This document shows positions 14,079-51,503 of a DNA stretch of 64,000 bases, piece by piece (within the stretch, counting starts at the first letter, position 1; every line of letters starts with the position of its first letter). The DNA comes from a bacterium (GTDB taxonomy: Bacteria; Bdellovibrionota_C; UBA2361; RFPC01). The translations under genes were made by a program, and so were the position numbers. The stretch is taken from NCBI GenBank assembly GCA_030428205.1, contig JAUIBK010000019.1, forward strand, positions 1-64,000, given 5' to 3'. A model generated the notes under the pieces. It had not been told where the DNA came from and made no database searches. It worked only from the letters and a program-made list of their open reading frames with translations.

Positions 14079-14154
14079 AAATTATAACGCGAAGGACGCG
14101 AAGTTCGCGAAGATCAACCCCTTCGCGAACTTCGCGTCCTTCGCGTTATAATTT
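14079..14154. repeat. CGCGAAG-rich palindrome (copy 1)
   Basis: 34-base perfect arms (14079-14112 and 14121-14154) of repeating CGCGAAG units, ended by AAATTATAA/TTATAATTT, with an 8-base loop. Related copies are at 28992, 30461 and 37179. It lies in the divergent map/PPTase intergenic region, so it is not simply a terminator for a finished gene. Confidence 0.92.
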
Positions 14155-28626: not shown

Positions 28627-28741
28627 GCAACAGCCTCCACTCACCAAATCTCTCCTCCCCCTTACTCGTGAACTTGAACACGCATACGTGTCGGCACCTC
28701 CCTAGGATAAGTTTACACTCAAGATAGCCTCTTGAGGTTCT

Positions 28742-28789
28742 ATACTGAATGCATATCAAAATGCAGGTATTTTGATATGCGTTCAGTAT
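28742..28789. repeat. 21 bp-arm palindrome with 6-base loop
   Basis: ATACTGAATGCATATCAAAAT pairs with 28769-28789 with one mismatch. It lies in the 550 bp gap after the receiver gene, between convergent genes, with no T-run. Confidence 0.85.
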
Positions 28790-28807
28790 CCCCCGGAGGG
28801 AAGACAA

Positions 28808-28915
28808 ATACTCCCCGCGTAATCAGTAAGGGCCGATCAGGCCCTTTCCATGGCGCACTTAATAGTGTTGCACTTCAATGTTGAACTCAGTGGTATTTTC
28901 AAGTGCGGGGAGTAT
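28808..28915. repeat. ATACTCCCCGC-ended element, long form (copy C)
   Basis: 108 bases with perfect 11-base terminal inverted repeats (ATACTCCCCGC / GCGGGGAGTAT). Inside are the hairpin AAGGGCCGATCAGGCCCTTT, then TTCCATGG and GGTATTTTCAAG. The last part equals the short form at 30527-30580. This copy links the short and long forms into one family. Confidence 0.85.
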
Positions 28916-28991
28916 AGAATATCCGAATCTGATAAGTTGAACAGCTCCAGGATAGAGGGCGAGAGTCTCTCTCTGTAGACGACCTTTTTTT

Positions 28992-29061
28992 CAAATATAA
29001 CGCGGAGTACGCGAAGAGCGCGAAGCCCTTCTTTCTTCGCGTACTTCGCGTTACAAAATTT
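28992..29061. repeat. CGCGAAG-rich palindrome (copy 2)
   Basis: Imperfect arms AAATATAACGCGGAGTACGCGAAG and CTTCGCGTACTTCGCGTTACAAAATTT. It lies in the same convergent gap as element C and upstream of the end of the glycosyltransferase gene. Confidence 0.85.
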
Positions 29062-29176
29062 CAATCATGATATCTGTAAACTCTATTTAGGGACGGATCA
29101 TTTTGCCCACGTTACAGTTCACGTGCAAGGGAGAGTAATAACGTTGAGAGTTCTTGAGCTCAAGGAGGAAAAAGGA

Positions 29177-48085: not shown

Positions 48086-48115
48086 ATGAGAGGAAGTAAA
48101 TCACAAAACGACAAG

Positions 48116-48156
48116 AAAAAAAAAGCACGGGTTCGGTGCTTCGCCGAACCCGTGCT
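48116..48156 (-). terminator. strong intrinsic terminator of the putative giant RNA
   Basis: Read on the minus strand, AGCACGGGTTCGG and CCGAACCCGTGCT (48144-48156 and 48124-48136) form a 13 bp GC-rich stem with a 7-base loop, followed at once by 8-9 T. On the plus strand the T-run is absent. The only minus-strand sequence it can terminate is the gene-free interval upstream of it. Confidence 0.9.
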
Positions 48157-50126
48157 GACTGGTGATTTATCTTTTGGGGCATGAAGCGTTTTGCTCGAAG
48201 CGGATTGGTTGCAGCTTTTCGCTCAACTCCTTCGAGGCAAAGCCCCTGCTTTTTGCTACTTACAGAGTTCGTCTCTGCTGACCGTCGTCATATTCAAGTA
48301 GCCTTATGACAAACTAGGATACCATTTCCAGTTTTGTTCATCTTTTCAGTAGCTCATTTTGGCTTACTGAAAATACCAACGTTACATACCTCCTGGGGGG
48401 TGCTTTCTCACAAAGCGGGATCCTACCCTCCCATTCTCGCCGCGCCGGTAAGGCTTGCGACAGAACTGGTTGCTAAAAAATTCGGCCGATTTAGCAACCA
48501 AAAAGGTTTTCTTGCGGTCCTTCAAAAGGGGCTACCCTTTCTGTAAAGCAAGCTACTCTCCTTTGGAGTAGGTTGCGACATTCTCTTTTGGGGCCGCTAA
48601 GCCTCCTGGGAGTGTGGTCTCTCATGGACCCAGTCCCTTTGCGAGTGCTTCGTAACGAGTTTCACGTACCTTTTTAAAAGCGCTCTTAAGAACGTCAGAC
48701 CGTGTTGACGCGCCCCCTGATTTTCACGTGTTGTTACTCTCAAAACACGCTCAGGAGTTGTATGCTACGTCATGAAGCGAAAACTTTGCTCGGTAGCTTC
48801 ACATGGCCTAAGAACATAAGGGTTGCCCATTATCGTTCTTACGTACTCCCTTTTGTTCGCATTTGCTCGTGTTCCCGTTGTAACACTGCACTTCCTTAGA
48901 AGTGCATTGAAGAGCAAAGCGTGCATAACCATTTGTCCATAACTCTTCAGTGATAAAGGAGCCTCTCTTCGAGGAGAGTGCCCAGTGCGACCTTTGGTGC
49001 CTGTCTTAGTCGAAAAGTTAACCGGCTAGGTTACTTTTGCTAAGCCTTTGTCACTGCAGACTACCTAACAAGCTTGCGCCGAGAGATAGTCACTCTTCGA
49101 GCTTCGTCCTGAGTACTACACGGCTGTAGCGCGTGAGGGCTCTCCCCTCTCCGCCTTCTTCATTATGGCCTAGAGAAGGTCGTACCTTTCTGGCTGAAGA
49201 AGTCATCTCAGTCTGCTCAAATACGGGCTCTCTTTTCGAGAACCGAGAGCTATGTAGTTATGCCGGGATACATGTGTCGCAGAGAAAAGGAGGAGTAACG
49301 ACCGTTGGTTGTTTAAAACTTGAAACCTCACCAATAAAGCTCTCAAGTTTCTCACGAATTGGTGCATTCGTGTCCTTTTCTCTACTCCGATGAAACCTCT
49401 CCACCTCTCTACTTGGCTCTCTCCCAATAAGAAAGAGGCCTTATGCGCAGACGGTGAGTCGATCCTCGGGAGGCAAACGTGATGTGTAATCACATCAATT
49501 CACCTCGAACGCAAAGGATGGTTTGGGCAGCAAGAATCACAGGTCTCCCTTTCATTCTTGTCTGCGCTTCCACTAGAGTTGCCTCTAGGGTCATCGGCGA
49601 TTTATCAGTAGGAGGCAGCCCAGATGTTTTATTTCCTGCTTCCTACCGCCTCTAGAGAATCTTTTGCGCACCCTAGAGACGCCCGTGGAACTTGTACCGT
49701 TTGTATAGGAGACTTGCGCTTCCTACCGGCGACTTAGGTCAGGCTCATATGAGATTACCGTTTCAGATAGACCCCATCTACGAGTAAGACCTAAACAAGA
49801 ACCAGCCAGCCACTACGTATTAACAGTGACCGGAACCTTACGTCCTTGTCCCAACTAAGAAGCAATCTCGTTGAGACAGTCTTTCACCAGTCACCCGGTG
49901 AAATGCTTTCCGGCAAAGCGAGTTTTGATTTCCAAAAGAGAACTTTTAGAGCCAACTCTTCAAATGCTCTGTAGCATGTAGCCTTTTCGGGAAGGAGAAC
50001 TGGCCCAAGTTAATGGGAGTTCTTTGAAGCCGATGCCTCCGCGAGGAGGTAAGGGTTTCAACTACAAAGAGCAAGGAGAGAGTTCGTCTCGTAAGGGAGT
50101 CCAAACTTTTGTTCCCTCGCTTCCAC
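48118..50126 (-). ncRNA. putative giant structured non-coding RNA (about 2 kb)
   Basis: Gene-free 2 kb bounded by a promoter-like pair and an intrinsic terminator. Open frames inside are short, overlap on both strands and lack ribosome sites. Perfect or near-perfect hairpins occur every 50-100 bases. Examples (plus coordinates): 48343-48351/48365-48373 (9 bp), 48467-48477/48490-48500 (11 bp), 48727-48732/48744-48749 inside 48716-48720/48751-48755, 48888-48894/48899-48905, 49353-49359/49366-49372, 49481-49486/49491-49496, 49573-49578/49583-49588 (minus-strand loop GCAA, a GNRA tetraloop), 49734-49740/49788-49794 enclosing two hairpins, and 49997-50001/50018-50022 enclosing 50004-50007/50014-50017. 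AGAGTTCGTCTC occurs near both ends (48264, 50079). It does not match rRNA, tmRNA, RNase P or a group II intron. Confidence 0.75.
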
Positions 50127-50132
50127 AATTAC

Positions 50133-50161
50133 GTAATACCGGTGGGGCATTTTGAAATCAA
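50133..50161 (-). promoter_or_regulatory. putative promoter of the giant RNA
   Basis: On the minus strand TTGATT (50156-50161) and TATTAC (50133-50138) are separated by 17 bases, placing a start near 50126. It lies at the edge of the structured interval and downstream of an AT-rich tract with DnaA boxes. Moderate match to sigma-70 consensus. Confidence 0.45.
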
Positions 50162-50210: not shown

Positions 50211-50241
50211 TTATGCACAGTTGCCCACAGCCTGTGGATAA
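50211..50241. promoter_or_regulatory. DnaA box pair next to an AT-rich tract
   Basis: TTATGCACA (50211-50219) on the plus strand and TTATCCACA on the minus strand (50233-50241) both fit the consensus and face each other; TTGCCCACA (50221-50229) is a weaker box between them. Immediately to the left, 50151-50210 is strongly AT-rich. This could be part of a replication origin or a DnaA-responsive operator for the giant RNA promoter. No dnaA, dnaN or other usual origin gene is adjacent. Confidence 0.55.
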
Positions 50242-50513: not shown

Positions 50514-51503
50514 GTGAAACAACTCTTTTTAAAAGTTATTCCCTGGCTCGTTACACTAGGTGCAATCTACCTGATCGCCACCAACATTGATTGGCGTACT
50601 CTTACGGGGCATATCGGTGATGCCAAACTCCTCCCACTTACTATCGCCTTTGTACTTACTTGCATGTCCTACCTCTTTCGCTCTAGGAGGTGGCAATTCC
50701 TTCTTCCTTCAAAACTCCTCACATTCTGGGATTCCTTTCGGGTTCTGATTCTTGGCTTTTTTATGAACAACATTCTTCCTGCACGTACAGGTGAAATTGT
50801 ACGCGCACATATGGGAGCAAAGTTAACCGGGCAAAAACGCACCTTGATGCTCGCAACAATTGCTAACGAGCGTTTAGCAGATGGGGTGATGCTTAGCGTA
50901 ATGCTTGCTCCGTTTCTCTTTTCGATCGGAAATGAGGAAGTATCACATGGGCTCCTTTGGGTTGTTGTTCTCTTTGCTATAGCAGCGGTATTTTTTGGCG
51001 CCGTGCTCTTACTGCGCGAGCAACTCTTTTCTCTCTTTGACACATTTCACGGAAAACTCCAGTGGAAATCCACCGATTATACACGGAATCGCATACGTCT
51101 TTTCCTGCACGGACTGACACCTCTTTTCTCCCCAAAGCGGTTTCCTGTGGTTCTCCTTTGGAGCATCCTTGTATGGTTCGTTGAGCTTTGCGTGTATATT
51201 GCGGTTGCAAATGCATATGATATTGACTTGAGCCTCGCCCAAGCTGTCATTTTCCTTGCTGCTGTCAACTTCAGCTCTCTTATTCCTGCAGCCCCCGGTG
51301 GTATTGGTGTTATTGAGGCGATTGCCAGCCACATACTGATAGCTGTCGGAGTTACCTCTGACCTAGAGATTGCGCTCGCTATGGTCTTAAGCCAACATGT
51401 AATACAGTACCTCGTTGTAGGTCTCCCTGGAGCTTTCGTAATGTTCTCATGGCGCTCTACTTTAGAAGAGATAGAAAAGGAGACTTCTGTTGTCGAAGAA
51501 TGA
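50514..51503 (+). CDS. lysylphosphatidylglycerol synthase-TM/flippase-like membrane protein
   Basis: 329 residues, about eight membrane segments. FRSRRWQFLLP, NNILPARTGEIVRAHM and LIPAAPGGIGVIEAI are hallmark motifs of the YbhN/AglD-type flippase-like family (LPG_synthase_TM). These often sit beside polyprenyl-phosphate glycosyltransferases, as here. GTG start; the stop overlaps the next gene by 14 bases. Likely role is lipid-linked sugar handling in the inner membrane. Confidence 0.88.
   Translation: MKQLFLKVIPWLVTLGAIYLIATNIDWRTLTGHIGDAKLLPLTIAFVLTCMSYLFRSRRWQFLLPSKLLTFWDSFRVLILGFFMNNILPARTGEIVRAHMGAKLTGQKRTLMLATIANERLADGVMLSVMLAPFLFSIGNEEVSHGLLWVVVLFAIAAVFFGAVLLLREQLFSLFDTFHGKLQWKSTDYTRNRIRLFLHGLTPLFSPKRFPVVLLWSILVWFVELCVYIAVANAYDIDLSLAQAVIFLAAVNFSSLIPAAPGGIGVIEAIASHILIAVGVTSDLEIALAMVLSQHVIQYLVVGLPGAFVMFSWRSTLEEIEKETSVVEE

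Follow-up and report, generated by a model that had tools for sequence, protein, structure and literature searches.

In a bacterium of a poorly known, Bdellovibrio-like group, what is encoded in about 2 kb of DNA that holds no evident protein gene and is dense in predicted helices? Such an interval lies in the window, the stretch of 64,000 nucleotides analysed here, and a preliminary description had read it as the gene of a giant structured RNA. The present analysis supports that reading: there is no Rfam match, and the syntenic homologues, which lack an open frame, retain the strand, terminator, upstream element and junction architecture of the gene, with compensatory changes. With a probability of roughly 0.6, positions 48116-50128 would be a free-standing gene for a giant structured noncoding RNA of about 2.0 kb with an architectural role, either as the core of an RNP or as the scaffold of a homo-oligomer. 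The elements of the locus are the following.

48116-50128, minus strand: giant structured noncoding RNA gene, about 2013 nt (no ORF beyond chance, folding z-score -13.7, no Rfam match, syntenic homologues)
48115-48156, minus strand: intrinsic terminator, 13-bp stem plus T9 (terminator scan)
50133-50161, minus strand: putative promoter TTGATT-17-TATTAC with T-rich, UP-like tracts ahead (GTTGATTT invariant in three genomes; -10 weak and poorly conserved)
50221-50241, minus strand: 21-bp DnaA-box-like inverted pair TTATCCACA-GGC-TGTGGGCAA, found in all three genomes
50211-50219, plus strand: third DnaA-like box TTATGCACA

Nucleotide n of the RNA corresponds to window position 50129-n, counted from a predicted start. 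The longest stop-to-stop frame in the interval has 98 codons, a length reached by 80% of shuffles, and its small ORFs give no Pfam match, in agreement with the earlier statement that no credible protein is present. Moreover, an open frame kept in homologues, named beforehand as a check, is found in neither of the two homologues described below. A protein reading is disfavoured. At the 3' end, the terminator scan places a stem of 13 pairs, nine of them G-C, at 48156-48124 on the minus strand, followed by a T9 run, which is the structure described before (13-bp stem and eight or nine T). In the homologues the body also ends in a G-C hairpin and a T tract, the one in G002 being read directly. On the other side, TTGATT at 50161-50156 is separated by 17 nt from TATTAC at 50138-50133. 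The hexamers and spacing proposed earlier as a promoter are thus present, with the -35 side conserved in both homologues, but they fall below the sigma-70 threshold of the scan and are weak by themselves. The T-rich tracts between the DnaA-like box and the -35 resemble an UP element, and would fit strong expression. In the manner of large ornate bacterial ncRNAs, the locus is a long intergenic unit without ORF, as given by the ORF test, the terminator and the conserved upstream element, its transcription being predicted.

The minimum free energy (MFE) of the minus strand is -766 kcal/mol, compared with -624 ± 10 kcal/mol in dinucleotide shuffles (z -13.7), and the plus strand reaches z -10.4; many long-range helices have pair probabilities >0.9, so the earlier impression of an interval full of stems holds. 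For the homologous RNAs, z is -8.0 on the RNA strand versus -4.4 on the opposite one in G001, and -10.8 versus -5.1 in G002, whereas four ORF-poor gaps of 0.9-1.9 kb from the family-mate G003, taken as control, range from +1.2 to -4.8. A strand bias is also observed in the tetraloops. The MFE structures of the RNA strand contain 5, 5 and 10 GNRA tetraloops in the window, G001 and G002, respectively, against 1, 0 and 0 on the opposite strand, and 30 shuffles of each RNA give a mean of 0.6-1.0 and a maximum of 3. The minus-strand GCAA loop noted at first is accordingly one of several. These comparisons support that selection acts on the RNA structure of the minus strand.

Two other places of the window contain strong hairpins. 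At 14081-14153 and 28999-29053, two near-perfect palindromes (ATAACGCGAAGGACGCGAAG...CTTCGCGTCCTTCGCGTTAT and a variant of it) belong to one family; they are its strongest short hairpins and probably a dispersed repeat. The intergenic stretch 28630-29160, about 530 nt after a CheY-like ORF, is structured by nested long inverted repeats, among them a 21-bp hairpin AUACUGAAUGCAUAUCAAAAU enclosed by a CUCCCCGCG/CGGGGAG pair; a 931-nt piece including the CheY-like ORF gives z -6.4 on the minus strand. It is possibly an ncRNA, or else a mobile repeat of small size.

Does the RNA belong to a known family? At gathering scores, Rfam gives no match anywhere in the window, GOLLD, ROOL and OLE included; up to E 5, the interval yields sub-threshold chance matches only, and the two homologues have no match up to E 1. 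By their covariance models, neither the window, the interval nor the homologues are members of the GOLLD, ROOL or OLE families, and the rRNA, tmRNA, RNase P and riboswitch models have no match at the RNA. A match to a known intron or RNA, the other check named in advance, was thus not found. This bears on the possibility of a self-splicing intron or another mobile element without ORF, with which the size and structure would agree, both being within the range of group II introns. Group II introns, including circularly permuted ones, are indeed large multi-domain structured RNAs; the window RNA, in contrast, has no match to domain V or D1-D4, and no group I or group II catalytic core is detected in the window, in the interval to E 5 or in the homologues to E 1. 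It also has its own upstream element and terminator, is single copy in the genome and occupies the same place in three genera. An intron or mobile element is therefore disfavoured and very improbable. Also, no description of such an RNA was found in Rfam 15 or in the literature searched, which was covered in part.

A DNA similarity search that covered phages, plasmids and 46 genomes of the phylum returned nothing but the locus itself; the short top matches, in G027 and G019, are located within coding genes and were attributed to chance. As a separate observation, G019 carries adjacent long ORFs built of repeated segments WxxIDxAGxxGxRGLxKGRTLSKIL (L005 339-2848). The nucleotide search for homologues proposed at the outset thus gave none, but two were found by synteny, locating the orthologous place through the neighbouring LPG_synthase_TM gene (50514-51503; Pfam PF03706). 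They belong to two of five other genomes of the family, making three genera in all: G001 (JAGRAO010000009.1, labelled Bdellovibrionales bacterium HKST-UBA20) and G002 (JAUIIO010000030.1, Co_bin.265). Both have an ORF-poor gap of 2.4-2.7 kb upstream of the LPG_synthase_TM gene, with RNA bodies of 1682 nt and 2063 nt, respectively, divergent from that gene. Orthologues of the LPG gene in four other families (G011, G012, G008, G015) have no such gap upstream, and a fourth homologue sought in 1.1 Mb of G003 met ORF-poor gaps that are not strongly structured. The divergent gene pair upstream is conserved, yet older than the RNA.

On the downstream side the neighbours differ. In the window, an ion-channel gene (48085-47198) on the same strand starts about 30 bp past the terminator, an arrangement that could make the RNA a giant 5' leader of this gene. 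In G001 the gene beyond the RNA is unrelated and convergent, the channel gene lying elsewhere, behind flagellin and without the RNA; in G002 it is a kinase. Because the downstream gene is different in all three genomes, the leader role is disfavoured and most improbable. Past the RNA terminator in G002 (L046 3555-3732) there are two similar GGGAC/GTCCC-type hairpin units ending in CGGCGAGCGCAAAAA.

The upstream region is the best conserved part in sequence, its 140 bp being 67% identical by column over the three genomes. Its common form is TTATCMACA-N3-TGTNNNNAA, 58 or 59 bp, GTTGATTT and then the structured body, with 58-59 bp from the inverted pair to GTTGATTT in the window, G001 and G002. 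Across the 46 genomes this pattern has exactly three matches, which are the three RNA loci, and a reversed control has none. Against genome contigs it gives 72 matches, comprising G001 and G002, about a dozen Paenibacillus and a scattered remainder attributed to chance. No Rfam match was obtained at 11 loci drawn from pattern matches, and viral contigs contain no match to the pattern. In the three genomes, the 21-bp inverted pair occurs at the RNA loci and in only one other copy, a perfect TTATCCACACCCTGTGGATAA between two unnamed genes at C37:55606-55626 of the window's genome G000 (L149 1501-1521), without a giant RNA. As in DnaA-regulated promoters, the boxes, predicted from sequence, stand at a fixed and conserved distance from the promoter. 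This suggests DnaA control of the RNA gene, and the pair would make transcription of the gene dependent on DnaA or on the growth state.

DnaA boxes also mark oriC, and the locus might be a replication origin or a structure whose hairpins act in DNA. The TTATCCACA-type inverted pair and the Paenibacillus oriC regions matched by the same pattern (the one match examined is a dnaA region) would agree with this. Nonetheless, the locus lacks the features of an oriC: there is no GC-skew flip, dnaA lies on contig C66 with DnaA boxes and a skew flip of its own, and both folding and GNRA loops are strand-asymmetric, which points to an RNA. An origin is disfavoured, and very improbable as well.

Another possibility is a regulatory RNA, acting as an antisense, a sponge or a small-molecule store, or divergent transcription that controls the LPG_synthase_TM/glycosyltransferase genes through the shared DnaA-box-like element. 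The divergent arrangement is kept in three genera, and Bdellovibrio is reported to have an abundant ncRNA, merRNA, for which a storage function has been proposed (PMC3627812). Against this, 2 kb of conserved architecture would not be needed for such a function, there is no riboswitch match and the LPG orthologues of the four other families lack the gap. A regulator is thus unlikely. merRNA resembles the window RNA as an ncRNA class confined to one Bdellovibrio-like lineage (PMC3627812), but it has 445 nt and a c-di-GMP riboswitch.

If the giant RNA gene is kept by selection, what is conserved in it? Identity between the bodies is about 38%, which is background and leaves them almost unalignable, and a global structure-profile alignment performs weakly better than controls. 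Given this weak result, the comparison was based on the junction architecture. The predicted domains and branches, all on the minus strand, are the following.

49952-50086: 5' domain, RNA nt 43-177 (predicted helices)
48783-49919: central domain, an eight-way junction closed by nt 210-224/1332-1346 (MFE and pair probabilities)
49882-49903: branch a, hairpin with a GUGA loop (sequence similarity to G002, pairs kept)
49847-49878: branch b, 13-bp hairpin (fold and homologue comparison)
49507-49845: branch c, subdomain of variable length (339 nt here, 162 in G001, 575 in G002)
49470-49506: branch d, hairpin joined directly to c and e, with no linker nucleotides, in the three RNAs
49387-49469: branch e (fold and homologue comparison)
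49279-49385: branch f (fold and homologue comparison)
48800-49276: branch g, large subdomain with an 18-bp composite helix, nt 866-883/1183-1206 (predicted fold)
48378-48771: 3' domain, nt 1358-1751, with a 17-bp closing helix; its helices are unmatched one by one in the homologues

In G001, the closing helix of the central domain (112-121/891-901) opens into the same seven branches a-g, and the corresponding helix of G002 (170-186/1451-1470) has a probability of about 0.5-0.6. The junction linkers are 1, 3, 1, 0, 0, 1, 2 and 2 nt in the window, 0, 4, 1, 0, 0, 2, 2 and 4 in G001, and 1, 4, 2, 0, 0, 1, 5 and 4 in G002, the last being taken from pair probabilities. Big junctions are frequent in folds of shuffled sequences, but in none of 2700 shuffle pairs do eight-way junctions fall within a distance of 8, while the window and G001 are separated by 5. 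Branch lengths differ widely among the three RNAs, like expansion segments.

In the junction register, 41 of 44 pairs are kept between the window and G001, 24 of them changed on both sides, and 39 of 43 between the window and G002, with 12 changed on both sides (15-26 for a slid partner). The compared helices were picked from single-sequence folds, so these counts are partly built in, and the agreement is mostly in order and register and not in the pairing as such. The hairpin of branch a was aligned independently by blastn (80% over 35 nt, E 0.003), being the sole similarity to G002; here 9/9 pairs are kept, two of them with both bases changed and one with a single base changed. Among the 46 genomes its motif is found in G000 and G002 only, and four GUGA-hairpin matches in viral contigs are all inside ORFs. 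The elaborate structure with covariation typical of large ornate bacterial ncRNAs is thus observed in a small sample of three genera, three sequences being below R-scape grade. Two other candidate features stand differently. The 12-base motif noted near both ends does occur at 48264-48275 and 50079-50090, but at chance level for 2 kb (BLAST E 1.4), and carries no meaning; a kissing-loop search gave one palindromic loop, UCGGCCGA at nt 1640, not significant (P 0.09) and unseen in the homologues.

The near-total divergence in sequence could also mean a degenerate, non-functional sequence structured by chance. This is disfavoured, and most improbable, because the z-scores are far outside shuffles and natural gaps, and the upstream element, the junction and the strand-specific tetraloops are conserved. 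For the giant RNA, transcription would be followed by folding into a compact particle of several domains, with stacking of the abutting helices of the junction and tertiary contacts through the GNRA loops. A large ribozyme or RNP enzyme is an alternative here, its fold positioning an active site and its variable branches corresponding to expansion segments as in rRNA. The size, the many-way junction with abutting helices and the abundant GNRA loops are typical of large ribozymes; however, comparison of the homologues revealed no block of strongly conserved sequence that might serve as an active site, there is no Rfam ribozyme match either, and an enzyme is rather unlikely.

The RNA would have its architectural role at the core of a large RNP or of a homo-oligomeric RNA assembly, by analogy with OLE, ROOL and GOLLD. 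Cryo-EM has given the structures of the homo-oligomeric particles of these three, and their sequences are not highly conserved, with covarying stems (PMC12286853). GOLLD is likewise a giant and ornate ncRNA of bacteria whose function is unknown, and ROOL is likewise large and multi-branched, and abundant; the former forms a homo-oligomeric cage and the latter an RNA-only octameric cage (PMC12286853). GOLLD has >800 nt, is found in phages and prophages and is often near tRNA islands, and ROOL has about 660 nt and is linked to phages and plasmids, whereas the window RNA has about 2 kb and no Rfam match, lies beside chromosomal housekeeping genes and has no tRNA in the window. OLE is also a chromosomal large ncRNA, a membrane-linked RNP and a dimer by cryo-EM (PMC12286853), but it has about 600 nt and highly conserved nucleotides and belongs to Bacillota, whereas the window RNA is almost without primary conservation and has no OLE match. 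For an RNA of such size, kept by architecture and not by sequence, a structural scaffold would be the best explanation.

That bacteria have large structured RNAs is already known as a general idea; the RNA family of 48116-50128 is new, being over twice as long as GOLLD. If rRNA and introns are set aside, those usually cited are OLE, ROOL and GOLLD, of about 600-900 nt, and the remark that 2 kb is exceptional agrees with this; a molecule of about 2 kb that keeps its architecture and not its sequence would widen the known size range. Moreover, the homologues were reached only via synteny and the upstream element, which shows how RNAs of this kind escape similarity searches and pipelines of the Rfam type. 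The three sequences make the fold, the oligomeric state and the function directly testable. More tentatively, and somewhat short of an even chance, they would represent a new class of giant RNA of 1.7-2.1 kb in one bacterial family, assembling into RNA or RNP particles on the scale of the ribosome and transcribed under a link to DnaA, with sequence evolution so fast that only the architecture and the upstream element are left recognisable.
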